From positions 124,001-188,000 of the forward strand of contig NZ_CANMJY010000005.1 in the NCBI RefSeq assembly GCF_947498345.1: a stretch of DNA of 64,000 nt, given 5' to 3'. This document shows positions 5,922 through 38,903 of the stretch, in pieces (the first letter of the stretch is position 1; the number at the start of each line of letters is the position of its first letter). Source of the stretch: an uncultured Winogradskyella sp. (GTDB lineage: Bacteria > Bacteroidota > Bacteroidia > Flavobacteriales > Flavobacteriaceae). The notes under the pieces were generated by a model. That model saw only the letters and a program-made list of their open reading frames with translations. It ran no database searches and was not told the DNA's origin. A program made the position numbers and the translations under genes.

Positions 5922-8021
5922 CTACTCATCATACCAACTTCCTGGTATGAAATTTTCTATCCTAATTTTTAATTGACTTATCAGTTTATCACCACTGTCT
6001 ATTTCTGAATCTTTTGGAACATATTTATCTTTCTCGTTCTTATAATTAGCAATGATTTTAACTCCATCAAGCAAAATTTGAAGTAGTATCTTTGAATCTG
6101 ATCCATTCTTCGATATAATTATTGTATCAGGTACACTTGTTGAATCAAAAGCGATACCAGAATCAATGCCGCCTAAAGACAACCCTTCCGCAGCAATAGA
6201 TTTATACTGACTCATTTCATCAATTTGAAACCCGAGCTTGCCCCAGGTAATAGGGCACATAGAATCAGTAACATCTAGTTCGGGTAGTTCACCAACTTGC
6301 CCACTAGCTTTGGTTCGACATCCAGCTCCTCCCATGTCTGTTAAAGAAGCTTCAGACATCGCTGGATCTAAGAAATACAATCTTTCAATACCTGTATGTA
6401 ATCGATTCAAATATTGATCAGCAATATAACTTTCGGCTCTGGGATCTATAGATCCGTTAGTAATAAAAAATGGCATCCCATCTTTACTGCTAAGACCACC
6501 CTCTCCATTTAAGAAATTCATCTTTGGTAGAGTTCTAGTTGGCGGAAATGCACCAGCAACCCTGACAACTTCAAGTCCTGCGCGTCGTAAATCTTCATAA
6601 CTCCTGTTTTCATATTGTGCAAATTTTCTTGCTCTCTCTTCCAAGTCAAGAAGCTCTTCGTTTAACTCTAATCCCATCTCTTTCCAAACTACCATAGCTT
6701 CTCCATTAGTTTCACTAGGTTTTCGGTTTTGATAATCTTCAATCAACCAAGCTTTCTGTAGGTTAAATGCCATTAGGGCGTCATTTAGAATTACCTGACC
6801 TTGACGCATTAAAACCATAGACATGTCTAGATGAAACTCTCCAGGCTGCTCTATAAAATGTATATTTCTTGGGTTGTGAACTCCATAGTCTCTTGCAATT
6901 ACTTCCCTCACTTGTTCCTGGGAAATTTTATCTGGACTTACACCTTCTTTGTGAGCTAGTAATTGCTGTGTTAAAGCGACTCCATCACGACCCACTAAAG
7001 CATAAGGCTGGCCATCTTCTGTAGTACCGTGAAGAATATTTCCGCCCTCAATATGGCTTATATTTTTAAAACTATCTCTTTTTTCAGAAAACGCTATTGC
7101 ATACTTATCTTGCTGTGCACGCTTATCCGTTACTACTTTACCTGGCAAACTTATTTCCCCGTCTGATTTGTCTCTAGGGTCAAAATAAAAATCACGTTGA
7201 TCCCTAGCATCTTTAATGGCTGGTCCTGGATCTATAACTTCATTAGGGAAAGGCATATGAATGTTGCCTTGAACATCAAAATCACCTGAGTCCTCTGCCC
7301 ATTCATCTTGAACAGACTCAGAAGGGATTAATTTAATATTTGTCAGTGCCTCTTTAGATACATAATGGCGAAACTCATCCATGTCACTTCCTCTCAAAAG
7401 AACTGTAACACTAAATCCTTCTTCTATACCTACTAATGCCATTTGCTCAATATAAGTAGATGTAACTTGAGCCCTTTCCCCTCCTTTAAATGTCATGTGC
7501 ATTGTTTCAGGAACTACTGTAAGGTCTTTAGGAACTGTACGTGCTTCTCCCCTAGAATCAGTAGCTCTGGAAGGTCCTGAAATGTTTTTTGGAGCACGCC
7601 TAGATATACTGCTTTTATCTTCTGTTATAGATGTTACTGGCTGTTGAAAGTCGCGTGTTTCAGCAGGAAAAGCTAAGTCTCGATTGCCTCCTGCAAATAT
7701 TGACAATAAGCCATACAACTGTTGTCTCTGAACTGAACTGGGATTTTTCTCTAGAAGAGATTTCGCTAAAGCATAATTTTTTGCATTTTCTTCCTGATTT
7801 TCATTTAAAAGTCTAACCAATAATGCCTTATCGCCATCTCGAAGTACTCGTTGTATCACTTCAGGTTTCTCAAGCCTAGTATTATAAATTAAATTTTGCC
7901 CATTTGGTATTGGCCTATTATCAACCAACTGAAATGTATTGCCAGTATTACTTTTCGCTAAGCTATTTGCAACTGCAGTAGTATTTGCTTCTTTATATTT
8001 GTATAAGCTTTTATTTAGCAT
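5922..8021 (-). CDS. Putative eCIS payload, pentein-fold (arginine deiminase-type) enzyme
   Basis: The 699-residue protein has a polar N-terminus with a QLVDNRP motif at 31-37, the tag shared by the other payload proteins of this cassette, but it lacks the DUF4157 module. The body carries the ordered signature of the guanidino-modifying pentein superfamily: WAEDSGDF (Asp243), EGGN (Glu325), FHLDM (His397, Asp399) and GGAGCRT (Cys568, candidate nucleophile). Known members hydrolyse or transfer the guanidino group of arginine or agmatine, so deimination of host arginine residues is a plausible role. The large insertions between motifs are more like protein-arginine deiminases than compact agmatine deiminases. 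It follows the next upstream gene by 18 bases. The family call rests on motif order and spacing only. Confidence 0.7.
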   Translation of the reverse strand: MLNKSLYKYKEANTTAVANSLAKSNTGNTFQLVDNRPIPNGQNLIYNTRLEKPEVIQRVLRDGDKALLVRLLNENQEENAKNYALAKSLLEKNPSSVQRQQLYGLLSIFAGGNRDLAFPAETRDFQQPVTSITEDKSSISRRAPKNISGPSRATDSRGEARTVPKDLTVVPETMHMTFKGGERAQVTSTYIEQMALVGIEEGFSVTVLLRGSDMDEFRHYVSKEALTNIKLIPSESVQDEWAEDSGDFDVQGNIHMPFPNEVIDPGPAIKDARDQRDFYFDPRDKSDGEISLPGKVVTDKRAQQDKYAIAFSEKRDSFKNISHIEGGNILHGTTEDGQPYALVGRDGVALTQQLLAHKEGVSPDKISQEQVREVIARDYGVHNPRNIHFIEQPGEFHLDMSMVLMRQGQVILNDALMAFNLQKAWLIEDYQNRKPSETNGEAMVVWKEMGLELNEELLDLEERARKFAQYENRSYEDLRRAGLEVVRVAGAFPPTRTLPKMNFLNGEGGLSSKDGMPFFITNGSIDPRAESYIADQYLNRLHTGIERLYFLDPAMSEASLTDMGGAGCRTKASGQVGELPELDVTDSMCPITWGKLGFQIDEMSQYKSIAAEGLSLGGIDSGIAFDSTSVPDTIIISKNGSDSKILLQILLDGVKIIANYKNEKDKYVPKDSEIDSGDKLISQLKIRIENFIPGSWYDE

Positions 8022-8039
8022 TTTTAAACATATCGGTTG

Positions 8040-10151
8040 TTATTCTTCTGGTGGTAAATCAATAACATTTCGTTCATCTTCTGGAGGACGAGCTGATGAT
8101 GATAAAGGATTAGAAAGTACATTATCATCATTATAATTCTGCGATGGCCAGATTGTAGGTCTATGAAGTACATGTGAATAATTCTTATAACGTGCTTGGA
8201 ATTCTACCAGTAATTTAGTTGCATTGTCTCTAACTACTGGTCTTTCGCTTCCTGCCTTTTGAATGATGCTTGATAAAATCTGTTGAAAAAGAACGAAATA
8301 ATCATTTCTCACTTCTATCATTTCATCTGCTTCTAATCTCTCTTTTACAGTTTTATCATAAAGTCTAGGAGTTTTTCCTAGAAGGAATTGTCGCCATTCT
8401 AGTGCAAGTTGCGGTTTTAATCCAGAGATAGGCTGACCTTTATGCTCAACTTCATCAGGTCTATCTTTTTTCATAACATCTGGTCCAGCTAATCTACGTA
8501 ATGTGTTTCTTGATGTATTTATGTTTCGAAAACCTCCAAATAAAATGGCCGCGGTCTCTTGTAAACGACGAGCATGAGACTGCTGTTCTGGGGTTCCAAT
8601 AAAAATACAGGCATCGATTAATGTTTTATGGATTTTGTCTGGACGTTTTAAACGTGCTCGCAAAGCATATTTTGTAAGTAGCCAATGACTATCATCGCGA
8701 ATGATACGAATATTTCCTAGATCTCCAGACACGGTCTCTTCATTAAAGTTGAGACGACGTTCGTTTTCCTCTCCCTCATCGACAAAGTGAAATGAATATT
8801 CCAAATCGCCAGCATTAAACATAATTGTATTACGACCTGAAATACGCATATCTTCAGTTTTTAATAAGCCGCGTAATGCTCCGCCTGGTAATGTATCCAA
8901 TGCTGTGTCCATTTGATTCATTATTAACTCCATCATACCCTTCTTAGTTGTTACCTCATCCCTGTCTAAAATAGCTTTAACAATAGGTGCCCGACCTACT
9001 TTAAATTGAAAATCCATATCAATATCACGCATGTTTTCAGAAGCTCTTCCTAACCTACCTCCTCTTGGCCGTTTGAGTGACATTGCGGAACCTCCTCCTA
9101 GAATATACTCGAACTCTTGCAATAATTCATTTGCATTAAAACAACGTTGTATTAAACCAATTAATGTAGGTATCTGTATTATCCTACTTTGTAATCTTGG
9201 GCTTGGCGGTGGTTGCAATAATTCAGCTCTTTCTTCTTCATCTTTTAAGGCTTCTGTTTCACCTAGCATTCCAATAGCTTCTTCCGGTGGACGAATATTT
9301 AAAGCTCCAACTTCACGCATTGCTCCTCTGAAATTACCTTCATCGACTCCAGCTTCTTTTACAATTACCAACATTCTTTCCAGCAAATCTCCAGGTTCTA
9401 CCACAGTTTTGAGCCAGGCATCAAAACCTCCTTTGTCATTTTTATCGAAAAGCATATTGTAAAATGTCCCCTCATGTTCTTTAAGGTTACTTCCTTCTAT
9501 GCTCAAAAGTTCATTGAAAACTTTTATTAACTCGAGATGCGCAATTGGATTATATCCTTTGACAAAATACCCTTGTAGAACTGGTCTAGCATGAGTATCT
9601 TTACTATTAAAAAGCTCTAATAAAGTATTTTGTTGTGCATTTTTGTTACTTAAATTATTAGCAATTTCTCCCATCTTATCTGCCTCTTGCTCTAAACCAG
9701 TATCATCATTAATATTAGCTTTACCTTTCATCTGAAGAGTAGGTTTTACACGACCTTGCTTTTGCTGTACTACATGCCAAGCTTCATGTGGTAAATGTTT
9801 TTCTTGCCCAGATGCTAAATGAATATCTGTACCTTGGGCATAAGCATGGGCATTGAGCTGAGCTGGTTTATTAGAATTGTAATGCACTTTTGTGTCGCTC
9901 ATATCAATACCTGATAAATTCTCAATACCAGATTTTAAGTTATCTGGCAAACCTGTTTTATTTTCTTTTTTTTGAATGGTCTGCGATTTTGAAGTATTTT
10001 GAATCGCATCTATTTGCTTTTGTTGTACAATAGCTTCAGGTCGATTGTCTACAAATTGAAATGTAGACACACCACTGTTCTTATTTTGAGAAATAATATT
10101 AGCGCCCTTACGGCTTTTATTCTCATTTTTTTTGTCAGTGTATGTGTTCAT
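8040..10151 (-). CDS. Putative eCIS payload: DUF4157 module plus nucleotidyltransferase-fold domain
   Basis: The protein has 703 residues. The N-terminus is polar and carries FQFVDNRPEA at 31-40. A DUF4157 module follows (about 66-160) with HEAWH at 122-126, the HExxH metallopeptidase-type motif, and LEQEAD at 153-158, whose acidic residues could supply the third metal ligand. DUF4157 is known as a domain common in eCIS-associated proteins. Around 352-381 a GGGSAM motif is followed by R-rich spacing and DIDMDF, the pattern of nucleotidyltransferase-superfamily proteins such as AbiEii (GG[ST]...DxD). A nucleotidylating toxin is therefore a reasonable inference. The remaining C-terminal region is unrecognised. 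The module at about 66-146 is nearly identical to those in the next two upstream payload genes. Confidence 0.68.
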   Translation of the reverse strand: MNTYTDKKNENKSRKGANIISQNKNSGVSTFQFVDNRPEAIVQQKQIDAIQNTSKSQTIQKKENKTGLPDNLKSGIENLSGIDMSDTKVHYNSNKPAQLNAHAYAQGTDIHLASGQEKHLPHEAWHVVQQKQGRVKPTLQMKGKANINDDTGLEQEADKMGEIANNLSNKNAQQNTLLELFNSKDTHARPVLQGYFVKGYNPIAHLELIKVFNELLSIEGSNLKEHEGTFYNMLFDKNDKGGFDAWLKTVVEPGDLLERMLVIVKEAGVDEGNFRGAMREVGALNIRPPEEAIGMLGETEALKDEEERAELLQPPPSPRLQSRIIQIPTLIGLIQRCFNANELLQEFEYILGGGSAMSLKRPRGGRLGRASENMRDIDMDFQFKVGRAPIVKAILDRDEVTTKKGMMELIMNQMDTALDTLPGGALRGLLKTEDMRISGRNTIMFNAGDLEYSFHFVDEGEENERRLNFNEETVSGDLGNIRIIRDDSHWLLTKYALRARLKRPDKIHKTLIDACIFIGTPEQQSHARRLQETAAILFGGFRNINTSRNTLRRLAGPDVMKKDRPDEVEHKGQPISGLKPQLALEWRQFLLGKTPRLYDKTVKERLEADEMIEVRNDYFVLFQQILSSIIQKAGSERPVVRDNATKLLVEFQARYKNYSHVLHRPTIWPSQNYNDDNVLSNPLSSSARPPEDERNVIDLPPEE
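9716..9956 (-). repeat. DUF4157 module, copy 1 of 3
   Basis: This segment encodes residues about 66-146 of the nucleotidyltransferase-type payload. It is nearly identical in protein, and visibly very similar in DNA, to 11298-11510 and 13364-13606. Flanking sequence diverges sharply on both sides, so the module behaves like a cassette spread by duplication or recombination. Confidence 0.8.
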
Positions 10152-10322
10152 ATTTTCACTTTTTTGGCATTGGTCAATTGCCTATAACAATTAGGCTAAA
10201 AAACCTTTTAATGGCTTTTAGGTTTTGATATGGATTGTCTCAAATTGATAGGGATAAAATCAACTTATCGATCAAAATAAGACACTCATTAACTGTCAAA
10301 TATTTTCAAGAATTACTTTTAT

Positions 10323-11654
10323 TTAATAATTATACTCGTCCATATCTTCACCTGAAGAACTGTTATCTTTATATTTTTTATTCTTTTTTTCTTTGTCAAA
10401 TTCAAGAATCAATCTCTTTATAGGATCACTTTCCTCCTCTTCCTCTTCAGCCTCACCTTTAATCATAGCTATTAGACCACTTCTAGATATACCTACAACC
10501 TCAAAGCCATTTTCTCGATACCAATTTCTTAGTTCAATTTCAGAAACTGGTCCATCCTGGTCACATTCTAGAATTAGTGGCTCTTCTTCCGACTGTATAA
10601 AGTGATCTAACAATCTTTGGCCTAGTTTGTGTCTTCGGTGCTCTTCAGGAACACTGACCATATCCAACTCAGTTCCATAGATAGTTTTATTCGAACTAAG
10701 TGTAATTGAGCCATTCACAGTATAGGTTAAACAGGCCTCAGCACCATTTGGAAGATTTATATAATAAGCTCCTTGCCGTTGATTAATTTGCAGATTATCA
10801 TAATTCACCTGTTGTTGAGGCATTACATCTTGCATCTGAGGACCAGCATTGATAGGAGCCACGGGAAGCCCTTGAGCGATAGGTAAAGCATTGACGATGG
10901 CATTTTCTGGTGCTTGTCCACCTTCAGGTACAAATACACCCGTAACCGTTCCGTTGAGGATGTAGACATAAAAAATACTACCGTTCTCACTTACATAATG
11001 TGCACCATCTGGGAGGGGAATGGCGTCACCAATACTAACCCTTTGAATAACGTGAGCATGTGATGTCTGGTTAACTTGCATATGCCGTAGATCAGGACTC
11101 CTACTCGAGCCTAAACCTTTAGAGTCCCTCACATAAAAATTACCCTGTATTGGTACATCAGATTGTAATCCGGTCATTTTCAAGATTGATCTTTTAGGTT
11201 GATTCACTTCAGCTTCCATTAATTTTTCACCCATTACATCAGCCTCTTTTTCTAAGCTTTCGTCATCATTAATATTTACTTTTTCTTTTAGTTGGTTGGT
11301 TGGTTTTACCCTTCCCTGTTTTTGTTGCACTACGTGCCAAGCTTCATGTGGTAAATGTTTTTCTTGCCCAGATGCTAGATGAATATCTGTACCTTGTGCA
11401 TAAGCATGTGCATTAAGTTGAGCTGGTTTATTAGAATTGTAATGTACTTTGGTATCACTCATATCAATACCTGATAAGTTTTCAATACCAGATTTTAAAT
11501 TGTCTGGTAAGTTAGTGTCATTCTTTTTACGCTGAAATATCGCTTTATTATTAGGACGATTGTCTTCTAGAATAATAGAACGATTCTTCGTTCTCCCTTT
11601 AAATGAAACTGCTTCACTATTATTTAGTTCTTTATTTTTTGGTACATATTGCAT
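10323..11654 (-). CDS. Putative eCIS payload: DUF4157 module plus GNAT acetyltransferase domain
   Basis: The protein has 443 residues. A degenerate tag, LEDNRPNNKA, sits at 29-38, followed by a DUF4157 module (about 49-140) with HEAWH at 103-107 and LEKEAD at 134-139. After a long low-similarity linker, residues about 305-400 read as a GNAT N-acetyltransferase: VPEEHRRHKLGQRLL (335-349) is the acetyl-CoA pyrophosphate-binding loop region with the usual first Gly replaced by Lys343, and NWYRENGFEVVG (377-388) is the typical late motif. The C-terminus is highly acidic, then Lys-rich. Acetyl-CoA-dependent modification of a target is the expected chemistry; the substrate cannot be inferred. It sits between two other DUF4157 payload genes. 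Confidence 0.7.
   Translation of the reverse strand: MQYVPKNKELNNSEAVSFKGRTKNRSIILEDNRPNNKAIFQRKKNDTNLPDNLKSGIENLSGIDMSDTKVHYNSNKPAQLNAHAYAQGTDIHLASGQEKHLPHEAWHVVQQKQGRVKPTNQLKEKVNINDDESLEKEADVMGEKLMEAEVNQPKRSILKMTGLQSDVPIQGNFYVRDSKGLGSSRSPDLRHMQVNQTSHAHVIQRVSIGDAIPLPDGAHYVSENGSIFYVYILNGTVTGVFVPEGGQAPENAIVNALPIAQGLPVAPINAGPQMQDVMPQQQVNYDNLQINQRQGAYYINLPNGAEACLTYTVNGSITLSSNKTIYGTELDMVSVPEEHRRHKLGQRLLDHFIQSEEEPLILECDQDGPVSEIELRNWYRENGFEVVGISRSGLIAMIKGEAEEEEEESDPIKRLILEFDKEKKNKKYKDNSSSGEDMDEYNY
11298..11510 (-). repeat. DUF4157 module, copy 2 of 3
   Basis: This segment encodes residues about 49-119 of the GNAT payload, from the LPDNLKSGIENLSG stretch to just after QGRVKPT. It matches copies 1 and 3 almost residue for residue, including the HEAWH motif. 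After this point the copy diverges (NQLKEKVNINDD here, LQMKGKA in the others), which marks one edge of the conserved block. Confidence 0.8.
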
Positions 11655-11701
11655 GTCAATCTTTCAAATTACTATATTTCAAATGACTATAGTCATAAAT
11701 A

Positions 11702-13801
11702 TTAGTGTTCCTCAAAGAAACTTTTAGACAATAATAATGTTACTGTAGTATAGCATAATTGCGCTTCTTCAAAATCTCCTTTCTTAATATCATCCACACA
11801 TTTTTTGATAATTGTATATAATGATTTTAAGATTTTATCCTTAAAGGGATGCTTATTCATACCATCCACAATAACTGGTGCTACTTTATAATACGTAGAT
11901 ACCAGCTCTTTTCCATCAGCTTTCTTTAACAAATAGTTATCTCTAAACCATCTTAAAGTAGTTAGTTCTTCGCAGTCATCAGCTAGTCCCATATACTCGC
12001 AACATGCTGTAGTAAGAAAACAGCATCTATTATTATTTCCACCTCCTCCAGCAGGTGCTCCACCGCCACCACCAGGAGGAGGCCCGCCAGGTGGTGGTCC
12101 CCCAGCAGCAACTCCTCCACCAACGGGAGCAACTGGTGGTGCGTTAATCGCTCTAACAAGATCAAAAACCGCAAGAGCAAATGGACCTAATTGAGCTGGA
12201 GTAACATCATTTCCAAGTTTTCTTAATTCTAGAATTGCTCCATTTCTTGCTGGCTCACCAGCCGCAGGACCTATATCGTTTGGTCCGGCCATGCCTACAA
12301 CATTACCTTGTGCATAACTTTGAGGAGCCCAATTTACTATATGCTGAATATCTTGACCTCCTGCAAAGGCATTTAAAAGATCATCTATAGTAGGATTGTT
12401 TCCAAACATCATCATCTCTGCATCATCTGGTATAATCATAGTTCCTCTTACAGCTGCAGGAATATTTGCTAAAGCAAGAATATCTGCAGGTTGCAGATTA
12501 TTGTACATTTGTAATAAACCTAGTCTAGGCATAAAAGGCATAAAGTATTTCATAAAACCAGCATCAGCAGGGTGGTTACCTGAATTTGTATAATCTGCCA
12601 AACCATACAACATCGCAGCAAAGCCTATTGCCTCATCAGAAGCTCCAGCCAAATTATTCCTTGCATCTGCTAATCCCTGTGTATAAGAAGCTTGGAAAGG
12701 AATTTGGTCAGCCTGTCCACTCCATCCTATTTGCTGAGCAAATCCAGCTTTAGCATCTGCTGGAGCTCCCAAAGCTGGAGCTCCTGGTAAAACCGCTCCT
12801 CCTGTTAAATTGGGAGCAGCAGTTAAATAATCTATTAACTCTCCTATCTTCTCAAATTTGACACCAACCGTAGCTTGCGGATGAAAGTGAACCGCACCTG
12901 GTACGTGAAAATGAAACCCAGCTATTCTTGGTAACCAAGCGACACCTCCAGCTGCTACTCCATTAACAACTACTCCATTAGCAATAGCACCAGCTAAAGC
13001 AGTTATGTCTGCCATCACTCCTATTAATGCTAATCTTCCAGCTGGAGTTTCTGGTACTGGGTCAGTTACAATTTCTACTTCATTATTTGTAGCTCCTGAG
13101 TCTTCTTCAACTGTAAAACCTGCACCATTACCAACATCATGACCTGCTCCAAGAGGAATAGGTGTAATTGCTGGAGCATTTCTATAGGTAACACTATTAT
13201 AAGCTTGAAATTCAAAACCAATTGCTCGCTGTACTGGTAAACTCGTTTGGCTACTACTAATTGTATTATATTTTAAATCGGTATTACTACTATCGGAACT
13301 CATTTGCAATGATTTAGCACCCATTACATCAGCTTCTCTTTCTAAACCTGCATCGTCATTAATATAAGCTTTACCCTTCATCTGAAGAGTTGGTTTTACC
13401 CGACCTTGCTTTTGCTGTACTACATGCCAAGCTTCATGTGGTAAATGCTTTTCTTGTCCGGATGCTAAATGAATATTTGTCCCTTGTGCATAGGCATGCG
13501 CATTAAGTTGCGCTGGTTTATTAGAATTATAATGCACTTTTGTGTCACTCATATCTAAGCCTGACAAATTCTCAATACCGGATTTTAGGTTATCTGGTAA
13601 GCCTGTATTATTAGGCTTTTTTTGAACGGTAAACTCAGTAGTATGGTCAGCCATAGCTTCGACTTGTTTTCTCTGGACGGAAGCTTCAGGACGATTGTCT
13701 ACTAACTGAAAAGTGGGATAATTAGTGCTGCCTTCTTTAGGTATAGCATTTGCAGTTGACCGACTAGAATTACTCTCCCTTCTATCTATATATGTTAGCA
13801 T
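11702..13801 (-). CDS. Putative eCIS payload: DUF4157 module, amidoligase-like region and CFI-box C-terminus
   Basis: I start this gene at the ATG ending at 13801, giving 699 residues. That places FQLVDNRPEA at 31-40 and HEAWH at 122-126, exactly as in the nucleotidyltransferase payload, and an AAGAGG stretch lies just upstream. An ATG at 13837 would add 12 hydrophobic or basic residues. After DUF4157 (about 66-160), residues 193-330 contain GFEFQ, EEDSG, EVEIVTDP and GFHFHV, which resembles the amidoligase/glutamate-cysteine-ligase-like fold (weak). A Pro/Gly-rich linker precedes a C-terminal domain from about 592 with CCFLTTACCEYMGLADDCEELTTLRWFRD in two stretches, matching the CFI-box-CTERM domain known from bacterial proteins of uncertain role. 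Confidence 0.66.
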   Translation of the reverse strand: MLTYIDRRESNSSRSTANAIPKEGSTNYPTFQLVDNRPEASVQRKQVEAMADHTTEFTVQKKPNNTGLPDNLKSGIENLSGLDMSDTKVHYNSNKPAQLNAHAYAQGTNIHLASGQEKHLPHEAWHVVQQKQGRVKPTLQMKGKAYINDDAGLEREADVMGAKSLQMSSDSSNTDLKYNTISSSQTSLPVQRAIGFEFQAYNSVTYRNAPAITPIPLGAGHDVGNGAGFTVEEDSGATNNEVEIVTDPVPETPAGRLALIGVMADITALAGAIANGVVVNGVAAGGVAWLPRIAGFHFHVPGAVHFHPQATVGVKFEKIGELIDYLTAAPNLTGGAVLPGAPALGAPADAKAGFAQQIGWSGQADQIPFQASYTQGLADARNNLAGASDEAIGFAAMLYGLADYTNSGNHPADAGFMKYFMPFMPRLGLLQMYNNLQPADILALANIPAAVRGTMIIPDDAEMMMFGNNPTIDDLLNAFAGGQDIQHIVNWAPQSYAQGNVVGMAGPNDIGPAAGEPARNGAILELRKLGNDVTPAQLGPFALAVFDLVRAINAPPVAPVGGGVAAGGPPPGGPPPGGGGGAPAGGGGNNNRCCFLTTACCEYMGLADDCEELTTLRWFRDNYLLKKADGKELVSTYYKVAPVIVDGMNKHPFKDKILKSLYTIIKKCVDDIKKGDFEEAQLCYTTVTLLLSKSFFEEH
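12030..12130 (-). repeat. Pro/Gly-rich low-complexity linker
   Basis: This GC-richer patch codes for a GGPPPGG-type linker with runs of glycine. It separates the middle region of the payload from its Cys-rich CFI-box C-terminus. Its composition stands out from the AT-rich surroundings and marks a domain boundary. Confidence 0.7.
13364..13606 (-). repeat. DUF4157 module, copy 3 of 3
   Basis: This segment encodes residues about 66-146 of the CFI-box payload. It differs from copy 1 by only a few residues over the same span (for example Leu for Ile in the LSGLDMSD part, Asn for Asp in GTNIHL). The upstream tag and downstream INDD...LEREAD motif sit at the same residue positions in both proteins. 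Confidence 0.8.
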
Positions 13802-13873
13802 GATCCTCTTTTTTTTAGTTATAGCTACGCACAACATTAAATTAGTAATACTCTAAAATATTGTACACTAAAT

Positions 13874-15088
13874 CTATACTCTCTTCCAAGGCGAGTTACT
13901 ATCTGGTTTCATATTATCCAATTGAGATTTAAGCAACACTTTTTGTTCTTCCAAAAGGCGAATTTCCTCTGTTGCAGCTTCTTGGCTTCCAGATACTTTT
14001 TCTTCTTCTTTTTTAGATAATAATTTAGTCTCAATCTCTTCTAATTGCTTTGTGATTTGTAACCTTTGATGCGCAGGGGATAATTCTTCATTCTTTGGAT
14101 CATCTTTAAAATTGCTAATATTAAAAGAATCTTCAAAATTAGTGCCTAGCCTTTGAACAGATCTTGTGTACTTTTTAATTTTTTTATCGTATTTATCTGA
14201 TTTTGCCAGTTTCCCCTCATATTTTTTTATTTTGTTTTTGTACTTATCTGAATCAGTATTTTTATCCAATCTTTCTTTATACTTGAGCTTTTTCCTCTCA
14301 TTTTCAGGCATCTTGTCTTTCTTTTTTTGATATTTTTTTAGCTTTTCTTTATTCTCTTCTAACATCTCATACTCATCAATCTTTTTTTGCGCTTCAGGTC
14401 TGTAGGCTGTCTGAGCTCCATCTTTGGCTGCATTTGTACCACTTGTAATTGGTGCATCTATTCCGCCGGTTATTTTCACTCTTTTTAGTATGAGGCTATC
14501 TTTTAATTTTTGACTAAAACCCTTACCTGTTTCACAGCCTCTCAACTCAATAAACTTTACCTCTTTCAGCCCCTTTGCAACGAGTTTACTTGCCAATTTT
14601 TCTGGACTATAATAACGGAAAGAACTTTCATCACCATGTGCCCCATCTAGTATTAAATCATCTTCTGGTCCAATTTTTGACAATTCATCATCTGGTAGAT
14701 TTTTAAGACGCTCATAAGACAATCCCAATAAACTAGAATCCTTTTTTATAGCTCCTTTAAAATGACCACTTAAAGTAACATACTTACTAACAAGCTGTGT
14801 TGTTGAATTACTTATATTCGATTTAGTTTTATTTACTTCAAAGTATTTGTTTTTTGGTTTCATTGCTCTCTTACCCATGATATCCGCTTCTTTTTCCAAA
14901 GTTTTGTCATCATTGATTTTAATATTGCCCTTAAACTGGGTCATGACATTAATCTGTTTTCTTTGTATAAGTGCCTCTGGACGATTATCTAAAAAAGCTG
15001 AACTCGATTTTTTATTACGCGTATTATTATCTCCTTTATTAGAGGCTTTAGGATTTTTTCTATAATCTTTAGAATATTTAGTTCCCAT
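13874..15088 (-). CDS. Putative eCIS payload: DNRPEA tag, caspase/C80-like peptidase region, Lys/Glu-rich coiled coil
   Basis: The protein has 404 residues. The tag LDNRPEALIQRKQ lies at 33-45. The HEAWH core of DUF4157 is missing, but the flanking KINDDKTLEKEADIMG motif (57-72) is kept, as if the core had been deleted. Residues about 100-210 contain LILDGAHGDE (His151) and, after a helix, KFIELRGCETGKG (Cys185). This His-Gly / Gly-Cys pair with matching spacing is characteristic of clan CD cysteine peptidases such as the C80 autoprocessing domains of MARTX and clostridial toxins. Residues about 235-400 are a charged coiled coil. Autoprocessing or host-protein cleavage is inference; similarity to C80 is by motif only. 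Confidence 0.6.
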   Translation of the reverse strand: MGTKYSKDYRKNPKASNKGDNNTRNKKSSSAFLDNRPEALIQRKQINVMTQFKGNIKINDDKTLEKEADIMGKRAMKPKNKYFEVNKTKSNISNSTTQLVSKYVTLSGHFKGAIKKDSSLLGLSYERLKNLPDDELSKIGPEDDLILDGAHGDESSFRYYSPEKLASKLVAKGLKEVKFIELRGCETGKGFSQKLKDSLILKRVKITGGIDAPITSGTNAAKDGAQTAYRPEAQKKIDEYEMLEENKEKLKKYQKKKDKMPENERKKLKYKERLDKNTDSDKYKNKIKKYEGKLAKSDKYDKKIKKYTRSVQRLGTNFEDSFNISNFKDDPKNEELSPAHQRLQITKQLEEIETKLLSKKEEEKVSGSQEAATEEIRLLEEQKVLLKSQLDNMKPDSNSPWKRV

Positions 15089-16901: not shown

Positions 16902-18257
16902 TTAAATATTTACACTAAGTGTCTTATTTTCTTTTTTAAATTCCCTTCTAAGGCCTGTTAAAAGTTCTTGCTTAGTTACAATAGTATCATCTCTTTTTAT
17001 TGCGGCTAAAGCGCAAAACCTAAGAACATTAATTATTGCACCACCAGCCAATTCATAATCTTCAGCAATTTTCCACAGATCAATATCTGGATGTAATTTG
17101 CACTTACCTGAAAACGCGTTTTTCCAAATTTGATAGCGCTCTTCTGGACTAGGCATTGTAAAATGTATCATCGATTGAAATCTTCTTGTGAAGGCATCAT
17201 CCATATTTGCCTTAAGGTTTGATGCCAGAATTACTGTACCAGGAAAATCCTCTATGCGCTGCAATAAATAAGCTGTTTGCTGATTAGCATGTCTATCATT
17301 TGAGGAGTTGGCAATAGTACGTTTTCCAAATAAAGCATCGGCTTCATCAAAGAATAATATCCAATCCTTATGCTGAGCTATATCAAATATTTTTGCGAGG
17401 TTTTTTTCAGTCTCACCTATATATTTAGATACAATCATAGATAGGTCTACCTTATAAACATCTTTTCCAGAAGCTTTCCCTAATAAGGTAGCTGTAAGTG
17501 TTTTACCTGTACCCGGTGGACCGTAAAATAATGTTCTATAGCCCGGTTTAATCATCTTCTCTAGATTCCAATCTTTCATTAATGTTTTTCTATGATTTAA
17601 CCATGTATTTATTTCCATTACTTGCTCCAAGATTAAATCATCTAAAACTGCATCCTCCCATTCCATATTTGTAGTAATCTTTCTTGCAGGAAACTCAGCA
17701 CTTTGTTCAATTTTTAGCTTCTTACCTGTTAAGAAAAAATGAAGCCATTGATTACTTAAACTTAGAACACCATTAAAGTTTGGAATATATTCGTCAGTTT
17801 GCCCTAGATTTATTACTTGTTCCTTAATGAGTATATCATTCTTATCTAAAATATCGTGAACAACTCCCTTAAGCTCAATTTCAGTAGCACTTATTAAAAA
17901 ACATAACGTCTGGCCTGTTGGTAAAAACCCACTATGACTTTTATCTATTACACCTCCAAACTCTGTAAAACCTCTGTCGTAAATTTGATTTCTTCCAAAA
18001 AACACATCTAACACTTCTGGTCTTAAACTTGGAGCAATAGCTAAGATAATAGCCAATCTATGATAGATATCTAGCTCCCATAAATCTACAATGCTAGCAT
18101 ATGGACTGTCTGAATTTGATAAATCTGGAACAGGTATATCTTGCCAACGCTTCTCATGACCTTCTTGCAATAAATAACTACATATTACCTGATTAATAAC
18201 TTTTTGAAGCCAATCTATTTCATCATATAAGGTTTTTATGGCTGATTTAACTTCCAT
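16902..18257 (-). CDS. eCIS AAA+ ATPase (Afp15/Pvc15-like)
   Basis: The protein has 451 residues. The C-terminal AAA+ domain has Walker A GPPGTGKT (246-253), Walker B ILFFDEAD (300-307), and sensor-1/arginine-finger regions around ILASNLKANMDDAFTRRF. The N-terminal half is the family-specific part seen in injection-system ATPases. In Afp and PVC systems this ATPase is needed for assembly, or for loading effectors, in the producing cell. Its start overlaps the end of the upstream 309-residue gene by 11 bases, implying coupled translation. It is the last recognisable core gene before the payload cassette, the usual place for cargo genes in these clusters. Confidence 0.93.
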   Translation of the reverse strand: MEVKSAIKTLYDEIDWLQKVINQVICSYLLQEGHEKRWQDIPVPDLSNSDSPYASIVDLWELDIYHRLAIILAIAPSLRPEVLDVFFGRNQIYDRGFTEFGGVIDKSHSGFLPTGQTLCFLISATEIELKGVVHDILDKNDILIKEQVINLGQTDEYIPNFNGVLSLSNQWLHFFLTGKKLKIEQSAEFPARKITTNMEWEDAVLDDLILEQVMEINTWLNHRKTLMKDWNLEKMIKPGYRTLFYGPPGTGKTLTATLLGKASGKDVYKVDLSMIVSKYIGETEKNLAKIFDIAQHKDWILFFDEADALFGKRTIANSSNDRHANQQTAYLLQRIEDFPGTVILASNLKANMDDAFTRRFQSMIHFTMPSPEERYQIWKNAFSGKCKLHPDIDLWKIAEDYELAGGAIINVLRFCALAAIKRDDTIVTKQELLTGLRREFKKENKTLSVNI

Positions 18258-19234: not shown

Positions 19235-20059
19235 TCAAGACGCTAATGCTGCTGCCTTAGCTGCAGCTAAACCAGCTTCTAAAGATGCTAGTTTTATCTG
19301 ACCTCTTTCTAATTTAGCCGTCGTCTCATTTAGTTGAAGTGTGGTGTCAACACTAGCAGTTAAAGCTTGTTCATAATCATCTTTAGCATCTTCATATGCT
19401 TGATAAATTAAATCTTTAAGACAAGTATCTACTGTATCGTCCGCTTTAGAACCATCAAGTTTTTTTCCGATAATGGTATAGTATAACCTCTGTGATTGAA
19501 TGAACTCTGTTGCAGAAACAGACTCACATTCAAAACTGGTTGCTTGAGATGCAAATGCTGATTTTAGGGCTATTAAAGTTAAAGCAACAGCATTATTAGC
19601 ATCTTCGCCAGCTGTTGTAATCATAGTAATCAACTCATCCGAAATTAAAGGGTTTAAGGCTTTTTGACGAACTACTAAATTTGATAATTTATTTACTACT
19701 TCTGCCGAGTAAATCAATTTTTCAATTACAGTTTTTATCTCGCAAGCTACTGTCTTTAATTTAGCATCTGCATCTACAATCTCTTCAAAAGCTATTTCTG
19801 AATTATCCATAAGATCAAATGCTTTTTGAATGATGTCATCTAGTGCTTCTTTATTTTTGAGTGCCTTAGTTCTATCATTTTCTGCCGTAGATAAAAAAGC
19901 TTGAAACTTAGTTAATTTAGTATTTAAAGAAGTTGTAATTGCTTTTAGTTGTTCTACGTAATCTTTTTGATTTGTAACTGCTATTTTCAAAGCATCTAAT
20001 TCTGCTTTCTTTTCTTCAGTTACACCGTATTTATCATATATTCTTATTGTAGTTCCCAT
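19235..20059 (-). CDS. All-helical coiled-coil protein of the eCIS cluster
   Basis: The 274-residue protein starts MGTTIRIYDKYGV, after which almost the whole sequence is helical with heptad-like spacing, ending in an Ala-rich AAAKAAALAS tail. There is no signal peptide, membrane segment or catalytic motif. It lies 18 bases downstream of another partly helical protein and 58 bases upstream of the 309-residue gene. In Afp/PVC clusters the fibre gene lies near here, before the tape-measure gene. I see no fibre homology, so a structural or chaperone role is inference from position and fold. Confidence 0.75.
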   Translation of the reverse strand: MGTTIRIYDKYGVTEEKKAELDALKIAVTNQKDYVEQLKAITTSLNTKLTKFQAFLSTAENDRTKALKNKEALDDIIQKAFDLMDNSEIAFEEIVDADAKLKTVACEIKTVIEKLIYSAEVVNKLSNLVVRQKALNPLISDELITMITTAGEDANNAVALTLIALKSAFASQATSFECESVSATEFIQSQRLYYTIIGKKLDGSKADDTVDTCLKDLIYQAYEDAKDDYEQALTASVDTTLQLNETTAKLERGQIKLASLEAGLAAAKAAALAS

Positions 20060-20077
20060 AATATTATTGTTTTTAAT

Positions 20078-22156
20078 TTACTTTTTATCTTTTTTGTCTT
20101 TTTTGTTTTTTTTCTTCGCTTCCAGCTCTTCCTTTACTTCTTCAATATCTTCTAAAGCATGATTTAATTGACTTAAAATTGTTCCGTCAGAAGTATCGTT
20201 TTTATAAACAAAAAAGGGCTGTTCTCCGTAATCTGTTAAAGCATTGGTGTACTCTTTTTTATTATCTCCAACATTAATTGAAAGTATTACTGGGATATAC
20301 TTATGCCCATCCATTAATCGGTTACCAAAATTATCAGTAATATCTGGTAGTATTTTAACTGTGGCACTACCTGTAATAAATTCGTTTTCTTCATTTATAA
20401 CATCATACTCTATATCCGCTGCTTTATAGCTTCCGGCTGGGACTTGTTCTGCCACACAGAGATTAAATAAAAATCTATCTGTAGAATCAATTATAGGTGG
20501 AAAAACTTCTGTTCCGAATCCCCCTTTAATTTGATTAAGACTATCTATTTCTGCTTGACAATTGGTTATTTTTTCTCTTATACTTAATAAATATTTATCC
20601 TCACCCTTAGAGCCACTAGGTGCATCCTCTCCAACTTCAATTGGGTTATTAGCTAGATATTGCTTTCTTGCTTTCATCTGAACTTTCAATAATGTCATTT
20701 GAGATTGTTTTTTAGCATATTGCTTGTCATGGTCACTTGCCATTTTCTCTAAATATTCAGCATATCCTTCCAAGTTATTGAGCCATGCCTGAGTAAGAAG
20801 CCCTTTAGTAAGCTTCTCGTCACTTGGCAAAAACATACAGCGATACTCTATATCTTCTACGTTAACAAAAGATTCTTGCTTTACATTGAATTTTAACTCT
20901 TGAGGAGTAGAATCTTTTGGTACATCTATATCAAATGCCTTCTCTAATACTGTTGTAAGCTTAAAAGTAGCCGAAGGTGCAGTTATATAATCATCAAAAT
21001 TATTTATTGTTTTTTTATAGTCATCGTCAAGAATTGCATAGACGAATACTACATACTCCTCTCCTAGCTTTAATTCTTCCCCATCAGAATCATATAGCTC
21101 AGTTATAGATATAGGGATATCAAAAGTTGTGGTTTGAGGATTAGGTGGAGGAATAATAGGCAACCCTGCTGGTACACTACGATTATCCTTTTTATAATTT
21201 GCCTGTGCAGTATTAACAGTAAATGTAGATTTCTTATTATCCTTAACCAGCATTATGTAATAATTTTTAACTGGGTATGGGTTTAAAACCACATCTGTAT
21301 CCTCATCAGTATCTGAAGATTTTTTAACATCTACACAATCAAACTGGGTGAACGCAGATTTGTATCTATTAAACAACACATTATAACTTATATTGGTTAA
21401 GTTAGACACTTGTAAGTCTAGATTGAGTTCTTCGTTATTTAGTTGATAAGCTTCAGTAGTAGCAATAGCTTCTCCAGTAACATCTTCTAACTCTCCTTCT
21501 GCTTTCTTTTCTATTACATGGGCTTCTGCTAAAACTTCATTATCCTTATCTACAGCTTCGGAAATTTCATTAAACTCACTTGTAACAACGTCTAGCAATG
21601 TCTTAATTGATGTATCTGTGCTTACAGCTTTTTCTTCTATAGATGATGCAGATATCTCAGCAGAGAGTGCAGAAGCTTCCATAGCATGTTGTGAAACTTT
21701 CTCAGCTAAATATGCTGTATCGTCCATTAAGCATTTTGCATACTGTGCTTCATCAAATATTTGCGAATTATAATCGGCAGCATTAACAATGCTAAAAATA
21801 CTACCAGTATCACTTGCTAGTTTAGTTATGGCATTAGCAGCTACTTCGATATTTGCAGCAGAAACAGCTGAATTTGTAACTGATTGTGTAACAAGTGTAT
21901 TTTCTACTTCTGCTGAAGCTACAACATTGGTAGATATATTGCTGTCTACAATATTAGCATGCTTTACCCTCTCTTTTTTGTCGTATTTCTCTAAAGCTAA
22001 ATTAAGCTGTTCGGAAGCTGTTATTCTTGCTCCTTGAGCATAATATAGAGTGAACATTGAAGCATCTTTTTTGGCTTCTATGCTCTGTACTTCTGATTCC
22101 TGATCGCCCAACGAGGCAACAACTGTGGAATGTAAATTTTCGTTATAAGAACTCAT
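20078..22156 (-). CDS. Helical/beta-sandwich structural protein of the eCIS cluster with poly-Lys tail
   Basis: The protein has 692 residues. Residues 1 to about 235 are helical and rich in Ala, Glu and Ser. Residues about 250-420 look like beta-sandwich (FN3-like) sequence with KNYYIMLVKDN and GEEYVVFVYAILDDDY strands. A second beta region and a coiled coil follow, and the protein ends in a run of Lys/Asp that includes KKDKKDKK. There is no signal peptide. Its size, mixed helical and beta-sandwich make-up and place next to the tape-measure gene make a fibre, collar or tether component plausible. I recognise no specific family. Confidence 0.75.
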   Translation of the reverse strand: MSSYNENLHSTVVASLGDQESEVQSIEAKKDASMFTLYYAQGARITASEQLNLALEKYDKKERVKHANIVDSNISTNVVASAEVENTLVTQSVTNSAVSAANIEVAANAITKLASDTGSIFSIVNAADYNSQIFDEAQYAKCLMDDTAYLAEKVSQHAMEASALSAEISASSIEEKAVSTDTSIKTLLDVVTSEFNEISEAVDKDNEVLAEAHVIEKKAEGELEDVTGEAIATTEAYQLNNEELNLDLQVSNLTNISYNVLFNRYKSAFTQFDCVDVKKSSDTDEDTDVVLNPYPVKNYYIMLVKDNKKSTFTVNTAQANYKKDNRSVPAGLPIIPPPNPQTTTFDIPISITELYDSDGEELKLGEEYVVFVYAILDDDYKKTINNFDDYITAPSATFKLTTVLEKAFDIDVPKDSTPQELKFNVKQESFVNVEDIEYRCMFLPSDEKLTKGLLTQAWLNNLEGYAEYLEKMASDHDKQYAKKQSQMTLLKVQMKARKQYLANNPIEVGEDAPSGSKGEDKYLLSIREKITNCQAEIDSLNQIKGGFGTEVFPPIIDSTDRFLFNLCVAEQVPAGSYKAADIEYDVINEENEFITGSATVKILPDITDNFGNRLMDGHKYIPVILSINVGDNKKEYTNALTDYGEQPFFVYKNDTSDGTILSQLNHALEDIEEVKEELEAKKKNKKDKKDKK

Positions 22157-22266
22157 AAAACTGTTTTTTTAAATTATTAATAGATTTTTGTTTTTCTGGT
22201 TTGTAGTTAATCGTTAACTTCTATCATTTTTAATTCTTGATATTAATTTCTCATTGGTTTTATATT

Positions 22267-25200
22267 TTAATATGGCCATACAACATGTAATGGTTTATCC
22301 ATCCATGGGAATTTTATTATTGAAAATGAAAAAGGGGATTTATTTATAAGAATATCATATGCTCTCTTTTCTACTGTTAGTTCCCAAGCATCTTCTCTTT
22401 CTAACAACAATCCTGTTCTAATTATCCAATTCCCCCTAAAACCTTCTATAGATGAGTTTCCAATTGCTGACCAATGTTTTGTGACAGCAATTACTAATCC
22501 ATCGATCAATTTTCTTTTATCATTAGGTATATCTATTTTGTCTAATACTGGTGTTTCAACACTTAGCCCACTAAGGACTTTATTGAGTATTAAGTACTGT
22601 TCTTCTGTTTTGCTAATTCCTGTTGCTACGTATTGTAAGTAGTGTACGGCTTCTAATTGAGAAGCTGTACTTAAAAATTTTCCGGCTTCTATAAGCCCTA
22701 GTCGTTCAAAAAGCAATGGAAAGTATGTGTTTATTAAAACCAACCCAGCATTGGTAATCGGAATAGCATTTTTCGGTTCTTCAAACTTTTTAACATGTGT
22801 TAATGGTATTATCTTATCTTGGCTTAACTTATAGTCTTCTTTCTCATATAATTTTGTTTGCTCTGCTTTGGTAATTAAATAAAATTCTGCTTGATAAGCC
22901 ATTGGGAAACTTACAATGGTTGAAACAATACTTTTCTCAAAATCTACCATTGAAATTCTTCTTTTTACATTTAACTCCAATATCAACCTAGTCCAAACTG
23001 CATTGGGCATAACTTTGCCCCAATGCCCAGAAAGCCATGCTTCAATAAATATCTTAAAGATTATATTCTGTATTTGGTTAGAAGTTATTCCACTTATAGA
23101 CACTAAACTTATAGCTTTATAAAAGTGTTCAAATTGTTTTATACTGTGCTTTTGAGTTGGGTTTAGTTTTATTATAAGACTGAATAGATTTTGAGTTTCA
23201 ATTATATCTATTAACCTGAAAAATTTGGAATCAGAAACTGACCTATGTTTTAATACAGAAAATAGTACTAAAGGATAAGTTTTAACAAGCTTCTTTAGCA
23301 AATCATTTATTCCATATTTATTAATGGAAATATACCATGAAGGAATTTTTTCATTAACAATCAATGAGTAGCATAATTCTTCTAAATTATAGTAGCTATT
23401 ACATCCTAGAAAGTTTTCTAACTCATTCTTAGCATTTTTTGTCTGTGCTTGTCTAAAAACACTATTCTTTGCAACCAAAATATTCTTTAAAACATGCGGT
23501 ATTTTAATAAGTAATGTCTCCATTTCGGCATAAACTATTTCTGCCTCTTTATTAATATTAACTAAGGTTTTGTCCACAATTTCTTCTAGGTATACTTTGG
23601 CATTAACATCTGACTTTAAAGCCTTTACACAGGCTTTCCAATAATTAAATTGTTCAACTTCTCTTAACTCTCCATCAACTAATTGATTACTAAGATTTTC
23701 TAGTATTGCTATGCTTTTTATTACTTCTTTTGATTTTGATTTTGATTGAGCTCCATATATAATTGCTTTAACAAATTGCTGAAATGAAATTGATTGCATT
23801 AGGTTATTTAATTGCTTATCGGTAGTTTTATTAGCTTCTATAATTTTTACCACCTCATTTGGGGTTACCTCAAATGCAAGACTTAATAGTTCTTTTTCAG
23901 AATAGTCCTTCGACTTTTTACTAGAAGAATGAAAAAATGCATTTATTTCTGAAGTTAATTGTGATTGAGTTAATGTATTACCATTACTAAGTTTATAGGA
24001 CCTTCCTTTTATTAAAGCTTCTTGATGCAAATCCTCAATTGAAAGGCTTTTTGGAAATGCATACATAATTGCTTTATTAAACAGATGTATCAATTGAGTA
24101 GTGTTTCCTAAATAGCTACTATAATCTATAACACAAACCCAAAATAGCTCTATAAGCTTTTGTTTTATTTCTTCTTTTGCTAAGTATTTATAATCATCTT
24201 TTAAATATTCAAAATATCTTTCTACTTGATTATTCATTACCAATTCTCCATCCTTAACCAAATAGTTTAATACCTCTTTATTCCTATTAGTATCTATTAA
24301 TTCTGCATAAGTAAGTCTCCCATTTCTTATATTAGTCAAAAGCTTTTCTGATACTTCCACCTTTCTATTACCAACATTGTTCATTAATTTTAAAATGGCT
24401 TCGAAAACTGGTAGTTTATTGCTATCTATTCTACTTCTTAATTGAGAGAAAACAGTTTTACTAATTTCTAATTCTGGTCTTTTTGCATTTTCTGATGCCT
24501 CTTGGAATAGATTTAAAAATTCATCTTGATGAATTTTTTCCATATCAAAAATGTGTTCCTTATAAAGTAGATTCAGTAGCCTTGTCGCATCTAATTCTGG
24601 ATTAAGTATAAATGCCTTTATACTCTGAGTTACCACAAAAATCAAAGTATCATTACCAGTCTCTTTTATGGCATTTTTTAGGTTAAATATTAAATCTCTT
24701 ATCGACCCTTCAGAAGAATTTAATAGTATATCTGTTGTATAAGAATCTAGAACTAATGATAGAAATTGGTGTAATTGTGTTTTATCTGACCATTGTAACA
24801 ACGCCTTATATGCCTTTGTAGGATTAGCTACTACCCAATCAATAAAAGCTTGCTGTATAGACATTACAAAGGTATTATCTACTACTTTTTGTTTTGCTTT
24901 ACCAAAATGTTCTAGTAAGCTTTTTAATTGTAAGTCAGAAGATTTAAACCCTCTTTTGTGAGGTCTATCATCAAGAAAAGCTTTCATAGTGCAATAAATG
25001 CTTACTGTAGAATCGCTCTTTAATAATGATGAAGACACATTAACTGCATTAAAGGCTTTATAAAATTGCTTTTCGGAGCTTTTATCTCTTTTTCTAAATT
25101 CTGTTAGAAAATATTTTAAAAACTCTTTTACATTAAATGAAGTTGACTTATGCTTTAAAGAATATTCTAGACCAATCTGCAAGAGTTTTTTTTGGTTAAT

Positions 25201-32943: not shown

Positions 32944-33366
32944 TTACGATACTTTTAAATTTGTACCCTCATTTATATAAAATGGGAATACGTAATTATG
33001 TCTTGTATTGGTCTGGTTAAATACATAAGTGATGAGGATTTCTATTAAACCATTTAGTAAATCTGAAAAGCTAACCTCAACCTCCAAGACCTCAATTCGT
33101 GGTTCGTTATTTAATAATGACTCCATCACAGTATCTTTAATTTCTCCTTTTAAGGTTTCATCCATTTTCTTAAAAAAAAATTGATGCAGACCAGAACCAA
33201 ATTCAGGTTGCATATAACGTTCACCCATAGCTGTAAGAAGTATAATGTCTATAGATTCGTTAATGTTCTCTTCGTATTTTGTAAGGTTTAAGCTATAGTT
33301 TCCTGCAGAAAATGTAACTGGAAAAGACCAACCAGAACCCAAAAATTCTTTTTCCTTATAATTCAT
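32944..33366 (-). CDS. GPW/gp25 baseplate wedge protein (Afp9-like)
   Basis: The 140-residue protein has the gp25 pattern: GSGWSFPVTF near the start, then ILLTAMGERYMQPEFGSGLHQFFF in the middle, and INEPRIEV-like NNEPRIEVLEVEV later. The EPR motif in the second half is typical of gp25/T6SS TssE homologues, which nucleate sheath polymerisation. It starts 4 bases after the PAAR stop and ends where the J-like gene begins. Compared with Afp, the order of gp25 (Afp9) and PAAR (Afp10) is reversed. Confidence 0.92.
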   Translation of the reverse strand: MNYKEKEFLGSGWSFPVTFSAGNYSLNLTKYEENINESIDIILLTAMGERYMQPEFGSGLHQFFFKKMDETLKGEIKDTVMESLLNNEPRIEVLEVEVSFSDLLNGLIEILITYVFNQTNTRHNYVFPFYINEGTNLKVS

Positions 33367-33370
33367 CTTT

Positions 33371-33670
33371 TCAACCTCCTATAATTACGTTCATTGCTCC
33401 TAAAACTATCTGTCCTCCATGTGCAGTAGTATCTCCCATTCTAGCCGCTGGCATTCCTCCGATCATAACTGTGGCCGAACCTTTAACAATAGCATCTGGT
33501 GGTCCTACACATATAAGCATATCACCAACTCTTGCTGCTGGTAACATTCCTATTAAAACATTTGGCATACCTGGCCCAATTACTGGTCCTCCAACATGAG
33601 GTATAGGCACTAAAGCTGGTGTTTGCATTGGGCATGTATGTAAATCTGTTAATCTGGCTGCTGGTGGCAT
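33371..33670 (-). CDS. PAAR-domain spike tip (Afp10-like)
   Basis: The 99-residue protein is a whole PAAR domain: MPPAARLTDLHTCP at the start, then GMLPAARVGDMLICVG and GGMPAARMGDTTAHGG. The His and Cys residues fit the zinc site that sharpens the tip. There is no C-terminal extension, so the tip carries no fused toxin and cargo is more likely to travel inside the tube. It follows the VgrG-like spike gene by five bases. Confidence 0.95.
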   Translation of the reverse strand: MPPAARLTDLHTCPMQTPALVPIPHVGGPVIGPGMPNVLIGMLPAARVGDMLICVGPPDAIVKGSATVMIGGMPAARMGDTTAHGGQIVLGAMNVIIGG

Positions 33671-33675
33671 ATTTT

Positions 33676-36149: not shown

Positions 36150-36154
36150 AATCT

Positions 36155-36325: not shown

Positions 36326-36344
36326 TTTTTTAATAGGTTTTGAA

Positions 36345-37248: not shown

Positions 37249-37298
37249 AATATTATTTTTTTAAATATTAATTAATAATTTGTTTTACTTTACTTGAA

Positions 37299-38882: not shown

Positions 38883-38903
38883 AAGATTTACATTATTATT
38901 TTA

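Follow-up and report, generated by a model that had tools for sequence, protein, structure and literature searches.

Two extracellular contractile injection systems (eCISs), the Photorhabdus virulence cassette (PVC) and the antifeeding prophage (Afp), are the closest described systems for the proteins analysed here. Their cargo, for example Pdp1, Pnf, Cif and Afp18, carries polar N-terminal signal peptides of about 20 to 50-70 residues in front of unrelated payloads, and these peptides load the cargo, in PVC with the aid of an AAA ATPase (PMC11297309, PMC11495950). The sections of these two papers used here report that no conserved sequence was detected in the signals and that homology among groups of them is rare; analyses of eCIS effectors, as far as such sections describe them, used bulk properties in place of a signal sequence. 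In AlgoCIS, the proteins Cgo1 and Cgo2 fill the tube lumen (PMC8894135, in the section used). In this paper we describe a stretch of 64,000 nucleotides from an uncultured Winogradskyella sp. (positions 124,001 to 188,000 of contig NZ_CANMJY010000005.1, hereafter the window), in which five neighbouring genes close to an eCIS operon encode proteins with a DNRP box, in its full form DNRPEA, near the N-terminus.

The box forms the core of a leader that takes up about 60 N-terminal residues, and we think it probable that this leader marks proteins as cargo for one eCIS lineage. The best reading by analogy with PVC and Afp would be a lineage-specific cargo-loading signal that is conserved in sequence. 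The leader resembles the PVC and Afp signals, as the sections cited present them, in its N-terminal place, its polarity, its unrelated payloads and the AAA ATPase nearby, but differs from them in that its DNRPEA-xx-QRKL keeps both sequence and position from phylum to phylum. N-terminal cargo signals of eCISs are already known; what is new here, measured against those sections, is the conserved sequence and the lineage specificity. We found no published eCIS leader of the DNRPEA type in the open-licence PMC literature, preprints being outside the scope of the search. For the question of how eCISs choose their cargo, a conserved box at a fixed place makes point-mutation experiments possible.

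The leader and its DNRPEA box

The five genes of the window (5922-8021, 8040-10151, 10323-11654, 11702-13837 and 13874-15088, all on the - strand and named below by their first position) have the D of DNRP at residues 34, 35, 31, 47 and 34 of their open reading frames (ORFs). Three of the proteins (8040, 11702 and 13874) have the exact DNRPEA, the other two reading DNRPIP and DNRPNN. Gene 11702 contains an in-frame ATG at 13801, with GAGG before it, from which the D would become residue 35; this is the likely start of the gene and would place DNRP at residues 31-35 in all five. A sequence-only reading of this DNA had put the motif near residues 30-40 of five neighbouring proteins, and our positions agree with it, for 11702 with the later start. 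DNA able to encode DNRP (by a pattern in which serine may replace R) is found at five sites in the window, all inside the five genes, compared with a mean of 0.32 in shuffled windows, none of 100 shuffles reaching five. The whole 3.8-Mb genome holds 14 such sites. Four of the nine outside the window are without a start-codon frame within a 3-kb locus, and the remaining five fall at residue 80 of a 109-aa ORF (which reads DNSP), 35 of 72, 371 of 668, 237 of 309 and 460 of 466. Because of these frames and positions, none of the nine sites represents a further N-terminal box in a protein of ordinary length.

We scanned 84,980 species genomes with a DNA pattern for DNRPEAxxQRK, in which each R could also be S, and examined 80 of the 110 stretches that it matched. 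By our assignment from the record titles these belong to six phyla: Bacteroidota, Gammaproteobacteria, Cyanobacteria, Nitrospirota/Nitrospirae, SAR324 and Candidatus Anammoxibacter. All ORFs counted were called mechanically, and 13 of the 81 leader ORFs run past the end of their locus. The D lies at residue 35 in 50 of the 81, at residues 29-42 in 75 and elsewhere in six. The consensus of 46 rows is MNTHAxKxQENKSQxVANxxxQKxSxxxSTFQFVDNRPEAxAQRKLQExANNSP, and since the scan fixed the motif alone, the conservation flanking it is independent evidence for the leader. For 70 of the 81 proteins (those with the motif at index 28-41 and no fewer than 120 residues behind it) we compared the leaders in pairs. 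Related pairs numbered 2,407 of 2,415 with the motif required by the scan included, 1,253 with the motif masked and none after shuffling. A profile of the leader found 39 ORFs in 20 chosen regions; the box stands at residues 34-38 in 26 of them (a simple search, counted by eye), and its variants include DNRPEA, DNRPAS, DNRMRS, NNRPEA and DNRHEA. The regions that we read around leader and DUF4157 genes were chosen by hand and not at random. Residues 1-35 have a mean Kyte-Doolittle hydropathy of -1.15 in 75 leader ORFs versus -0.04 in 271 mechanical control ORFs, and this hydrophilicity agrees with the values given for eCIS effectors in the section used of PMC11297309.

A sequence of this kind could also be conserved as a DNA or RNA element, either a recombination handle for swaps of the C-terminus or a translation-control sequence. 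The strong modularity described below would suit such an element, as would the existence of ORFs that are nearly leader only, with 57-81 aa at L051, L079, L106 and L125 and 66 aa at L302:8433-8633 (L and G numbers are our handles for loci and genomes). These very short ORFs may be domain-swap relics, broken genes or small proteins. The same codon is also used at identical residues more often within genomes (0.65, 21 pairs) than between them (0.49). However, all synonymous codons occur at DNRPEA and QRK in the 50 ORFs whose D is residue 35. The five window leaders, moreover, share 36-57% ungapped nucleotide identity with DNRP kept in every one, far below the DUF4157 cores that three of these proteins carry (82-87%, the ungapped identity of their leaders being 39-57%). 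The codon usage indicates that selection on the leader acts at the protein level. Because the codons vary and the window leaders have diverged, recent copying of DNA is disfavoured as the main cause of the conservation, as are a recombination handle and an RNA element, and we give the DNA or RNA reading very little credence.

The bare DNRPEA was also considered as a diagnostic and rejected. Among 296 genomes sampled evenly across the window's phylum, 29 contain the pattern (R or S) and five the leader. The short motif of the sequence-only reading is better described as a leader of about 60 residues. The box can be repeated within a protein: tandem DNRPETVAQRKLR units are found in a SAR324 protein, and in others a second copy follows the DUF4157 module or lies about 75 residues downstream (repeat-box ORFs L071:4676-6226, L070:2164-4395 and L054:1982-3652).

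Variable payloads and the DUF4157 module

Behind the leader the proteins vary widely. Only 20 of the 2,415 pairs of C-termini are related, and the 70 proteins fall into 53 single-linkage clusters. For the window the C-termini had been described as unrelated; this stands beyond the DUF4157 core and fails within it, because the three cores are near-copies. BLAST matched the 5922 protein to none of the four other tagged proteins, and searches of Pfam, NCBIfam and PDB found no match for it. A CFI-box in the 11702 protein is the sole NCBIfam match of the five payloads, and PDB searches with the payload proteins gave nothing, or matches at E 0.078 and worse. The C-terminus of the 10323 protein resembles a GNAT acetyltransferase (Acetyltransf_7, E 7.8e-5, under the family cut-off). 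Judging by eye and without profile support, we take the 5922 body to be like a guanidino-modifying or PAD-type enzyme, and the labels PAD-, nucleotidyltransferase-, amidoligase- and C80-like for the window payloads are likewise tentative.

Other Pfam matches among the 81 leader ORFs are Endonuclea_NS_2 (5), Peptidase_M91 (2), APOBEC-like deaminases (2), GNAT (2) and one each of ADP-ribosyl cyclase, HNH and Ntox24; a Fic match was also found among the leader proteins scanned. An effector array in Candidatus Anammoxibacter (L302:2945-15211) has nine leader ORFs in 12.3 kb, one of 66 residues and none with DUF4157, and one of the eight ORFs scanned has a Pfam match (HNH_4). A constant N-terminal element with variable toxin domains is reportedly also characteristic of polymorphic toxins and of marker domains of the type VI secretion system (T6SS) such as RIX; these share the design with the leader proteins but belong to a different machine.

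The common element of the proteins is the leader and not DUF4157, as the sequence-only reading had proposed. The Pfam family eCIS_core (PF13699) exceeds its cut-off in three of the five window proteins and is absent from the other two, which are tagged all the same. It is matched in 31 of the 81 leader ORFs (E 0.01) and missing from 50, and because of these two counts we do not regard eCIS_core as a property of the leader. If only the 68 complete ORFs are counted, 28 have the core and 40 lack it by our own profile (of the 59 with at least 200 residues, 27 have it), and 25 of the 39 profile-found ORFs are without it. One of the two window proteins without eCIS_core, 13874, keeps part of the module. 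Its leader joins directly to the piece that follows HExxH in its neighbours (QRKQ / QQKQ junction, then INDDxxLEKEADxMG), and because the leader abuts this trailing segment the core has apparently been lost. It looks like a deletion of the DUF4157 core in which the leader was retained.

One alternative is that the leader is the N-terminal piece of a DUF4157 metallopeptidase-like module, for example a propeptide, which persists by inertia where the module is missing. It agrees with this that all three eCIS_core proteins of the window have the leader and that one of the other two keeps a remnant. The eCIS_core matches in the 296-genome sample, furthermore, fall into a canonical type and a short type of about 66 residues with weak scores; the short type is found in nine genomes, including all five with the leader, and all nine have an eCIS whose sheath belongs to the leader group described below. 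Against it stand the many leader ORFs without DUF4157, complete and profile-found ones included, and the absence of DNR from the first 180 residues of nine of the 20 short-DUF4157 ORFs in the regions read. We consider it quite unlikely that the leader is only a piece of this module.

DUF4157 effectors such as Cgo1 and Cgo2 are like the leader proteins in plan, with a disordered N-terminus, a central DUF4157 and a variable C-terminus (PMC8894135, in the section used). The canonical DUF4157 ORFs of leader-negative systems differ from leader proteins in lacking a DNR box and mostly having QxKLxIG...EAD before HExxH. In 20 canonical-DUF4157 regions none of the 34 HExxH-bearing ORFs has a DNR box before HExxH, although two have DNS near residue 210. 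An EAD-like stretch before HExxH is present in 29 of the 34, 25 of the 29 having QxK[LM] and 18 having FF in the stretch shown. Many canonical ORFs from L281-L300, all from leader-negative eCISs, have the N-terminal pattern FFxPxxQxKLxIG, possibly the equivalent tag of these lineages. In proteins of the leader lineage INDDxxLEKEADxMG comes after HExxH, and a similar QxKLxIG..D.YExEAD comes before it in canonical ORFs. Going by motif order only, the metallopeptidase-like DUF4157 module seems to be circularly permuted between the two types, and a motif-anchored comparison of 30-residue profiles of the two module types gave 79% probability over 17 columns.

Ties to eCISs and to one sheath group

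The leader occurs together with eCISs at the level of the genome. The eCIS marker Pvc16_N is present in all 38 leader genomes (taken from 40 of the 80 scan loci) and in none of 14 control genomes. In the 296-genome sample Pvc16_N is found in 65 genomes, and all five with the leader are among these (p 4.5e-4, or 2e-3 if the window's own genome is left out), the other 60 having no leader match at E 0.001. An even draw of 157 genomes from a Rheinheimera-centred family gave seven with the leader, all inside the 22 with Pvc16_N (p 4e-7; 3e-6 without the seed genome). In the genus of Algoriphagus aquimarinus the leader is found in nine of 40 genomes.

Not every eCIS is associated with the leader, and a tree of sheath proteins shows which ones are. 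It holds 63 sheaths: 27 of leader type (20 from leader genomes with a single Pvc16_N and seven others, namely the window, G174, G206, G323, G354, G282 and G092), four from short-DUF4157 systems without a profile match, five extra ones from multi-system genomes and 27 leader-negative ones. The trees were midpoint-rooted for drawing, and a group here means one side of a branch. All 27 leader-type sheaths and the four short-DUF4157 systems lie in one group with support 100/100, and all 27 leader-negative sheaths lie outside it. Of the five extra sheaths two are inside; the remaining three, each from the second system of its genome (G174, G289 and G296), are outside. Two of these genomes, G174 and G289, have a pair of eCISs each: the contig stretch of the leader-group system carries short DUF4157 together with DNRP-type leaders, and canonical DUF4157 stands beside the other eCIS, outside the group. 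In a second sheath tree with three solved structures added and the long-branch sheaths L241 and L260 left out, AlgoCIS and the Anabaena CIS are outside the leader group and 9r9h is inside. The window sheath is separated from 7adz/7b5h by a 100/100 branch and is not of the AlgoCIS/Anabaena type. The contractile system of PDB entries 9r9h, 9r9i, 9r9n and 9rce, whose sheath lies beside that of a Symbiopectobacterium, is in this respect one of the known systems closest to ours; the literature searched contained no publication on it.

We suggest that the leader would act in two parts. The first part, some 34 polar and probably disordered residues, would lead to a docking element, F-x-[FL]-V-DNRPEA-x-x-QRKL, that the loader of the particle might bind. 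The most likely loader is the AAA ATPase at 16902-18257, perhaps together with baseplate or tube. After binding, the protein would be threaded into the lumen of the tube. Its C-terminal effector domain would be free to vary, DUF4157 would be an optional module downstream of the leader, and genes remote from the eCIS operon would supply cargo in trans. In this way the leader might account for the supply of one particle from scattered genes, and a single leader profile finds effectors genome-wide, far from the operon and many without the DUF4157 marker. More tentatively, each eCIS lineage might read its own N-terminal tag, DNRPEAxxQRKL here and, in the canonical DUF4157 lineage, a box of the FFxPxxQxKL type, which would sort scattered cargo between two particle types with DUF4157 as an optional accessory; we regard this extension as possible but doubtful.

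A different function of the leader would be one after delivery or otherwise in the producing cell, such as chaperone or DUF4157 binding in trans, toxin inactivation or help in the target cell. Leader genes without DUF4157 do sit near DUF4157-bearing ones in several of the regions read, and DUF4157 itself has been suggested to serve as a chaperone, in cis or in trans (PMC11297309, in the section used). Such a function alone leaves the tie to one eCIS lineage and the fixed N-terminal spacing unexplained, and we judge it unlikely, a cargo signal being our preferred explanation.

Several observations weigh against a cargo signal read by one eCIS lineage. The first is gene distance. Among the matches listed there are 146 leader genes in the 38 genomes; 59 share a contig with Pvc16_N and 43 lie within 40 kb of it, which leaves 103 that do not, 87 of them on contigs without Pvc16_N, and 60 have a second leader gene within 10 kb. 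Breaks between contigs may inflate the number of remote genes. The idea that leader genes always adjoin an eCIS was rejected on the count of 43. The sequence-only reading had proposed to test whether tagged proteins cluster near eCIS ATPases, and had held that a motif common far from any eCIS cluster would speak against a loading signal. The tie to eCISs is seen in co-occurrence in genomes (5/5 and 7/7 with Pvc16_N) and not always in proximity, and the contrary case is seen in gene distance and not in genome co-occurrence.

The other contrary observations concern the lineage and its parts. In a tree of tube proteins the same group has support of only 95/78, with one long-branch leader-negative row inside and the G064 and G158 rows outside. 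These two genomes, of one genus (L216, L217, L264 and L265), have a long-branch eCIS inside the sheath group with short DUF4157 present; the leader profile has no match in them, no DNR box was seen in the stretches read, and canonical DUF4157 copies lie near the leader-group eCIS. The short-DUF4157 ORFs without DNR mentioned above belong here as well. When residues 1-230 of the ATPase were searched against 78 eCIS genomes (seven leader-negative genomes being left out), they matched in 75, leader-negative ones included, and the N-terminal tip aligns (start by residue 13-14) in all 29 leader-group rows and also in 15 of 49 others. The idea that the leader tracks the ATPase alone was dropped, since a domain found in 75 of the 78 genomes does not discriminate. 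Because this N-domain is also common in leader-negative eCISs, recognition of the leader by the ATPase is a guess from PVC biology, in which Pvc15 has tandem D1/D2 domains, as the section used describes it, whereas the window ATPase has one AAA match. Cgo1 and Cgo2 were dropped as direct evidence for the leader because the AlgoCIS sheath lies outside the leader group. Scans of viral_contigs for the leader gave pattern matches with no relative confirmed, and the leader profile found no relative among PDB chains, with one match at E 4.2. The viral_contigs scans for canonical DUF4157 and for the 5922 protein likewise gave pattern matches and no confirmed relative.

The eCIS locus of the window

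Sheath, tube, hub/spike, gp25, a Pvc16_N protein and an AAA ATPase all lie in one cluster of the window, which qualifies it as an eCIS locus. The gene order on the - strand is the eCIS cluster, the ATPase, a protein with a histidine-rich tail, a GH64-like protein and then the five tagged genes (Table 1).

Table 1. Leaders, DUF4157 modules and eCIS genes in the window (E values of leaders refer to the leader profile)
Feature	Positions	Strand	Remarks
Leader of gene 5922-8021	7887..8021	-	DNRP at 7911-7922; no DUF4157; E 2.6e-4
Leader of gene 8040-10151	10002..10151	-	DNRPEA at 10032-10049; E 8.8e-19
Short-type DUF4157/eCIS_core, HEAWH and following EADKMG helix, gene 8040-10151	9669..9950	-	
Leader of gene 10323-11654	11520..11654	-	DNRP at 11553-11564, variant DNRPNN; missed by the leader profile at E 0.001
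Short-type DUF4157/eCIS_core, gene 10323-11654	11229..11510	-	PF13699 over cut-off
Leader of gene 11702-13837	13652..13801	-	DNRPEA at 13682-13699, residue 35 from ATG 13801; E 4.5e-18
Short-type DUF4157/eCIS_core, gene 11702-13837, CFI-box C-terminus	13319..13600	-	
Leader of gene 13874-15088	14951..15088	-	DNRPEA at 14972-14989; E 1.6e-8
DUF4157-module remnant, gene 13874-15088	14873..14941	-	Post-HExxH piece ending EADIMG, fused to leader; HExxH core missing
Single-AAA eCIS ATPase, candidate leader reader	16902..18257	-	PF00004 E 6.3e-27, one stretch
eCIS structural operon	19235..40309	-	gp25, hub/spike, CIS_tube, two gp19 tubes, sheath, Pvc16_N protein, large genes without Pfam match

Two further genes stand between the ATPase and the tagged genes. 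The protein encoded at 16208-16891 has a natural histidine-rich tail, and homologues of its body also sit after the ATPase in G174 and G206. The other gene, 15105-16193, lies among the effector genes and encodes a GH64-type beta-1,3-glucanase domain (E 5.1e-16) without a leader.

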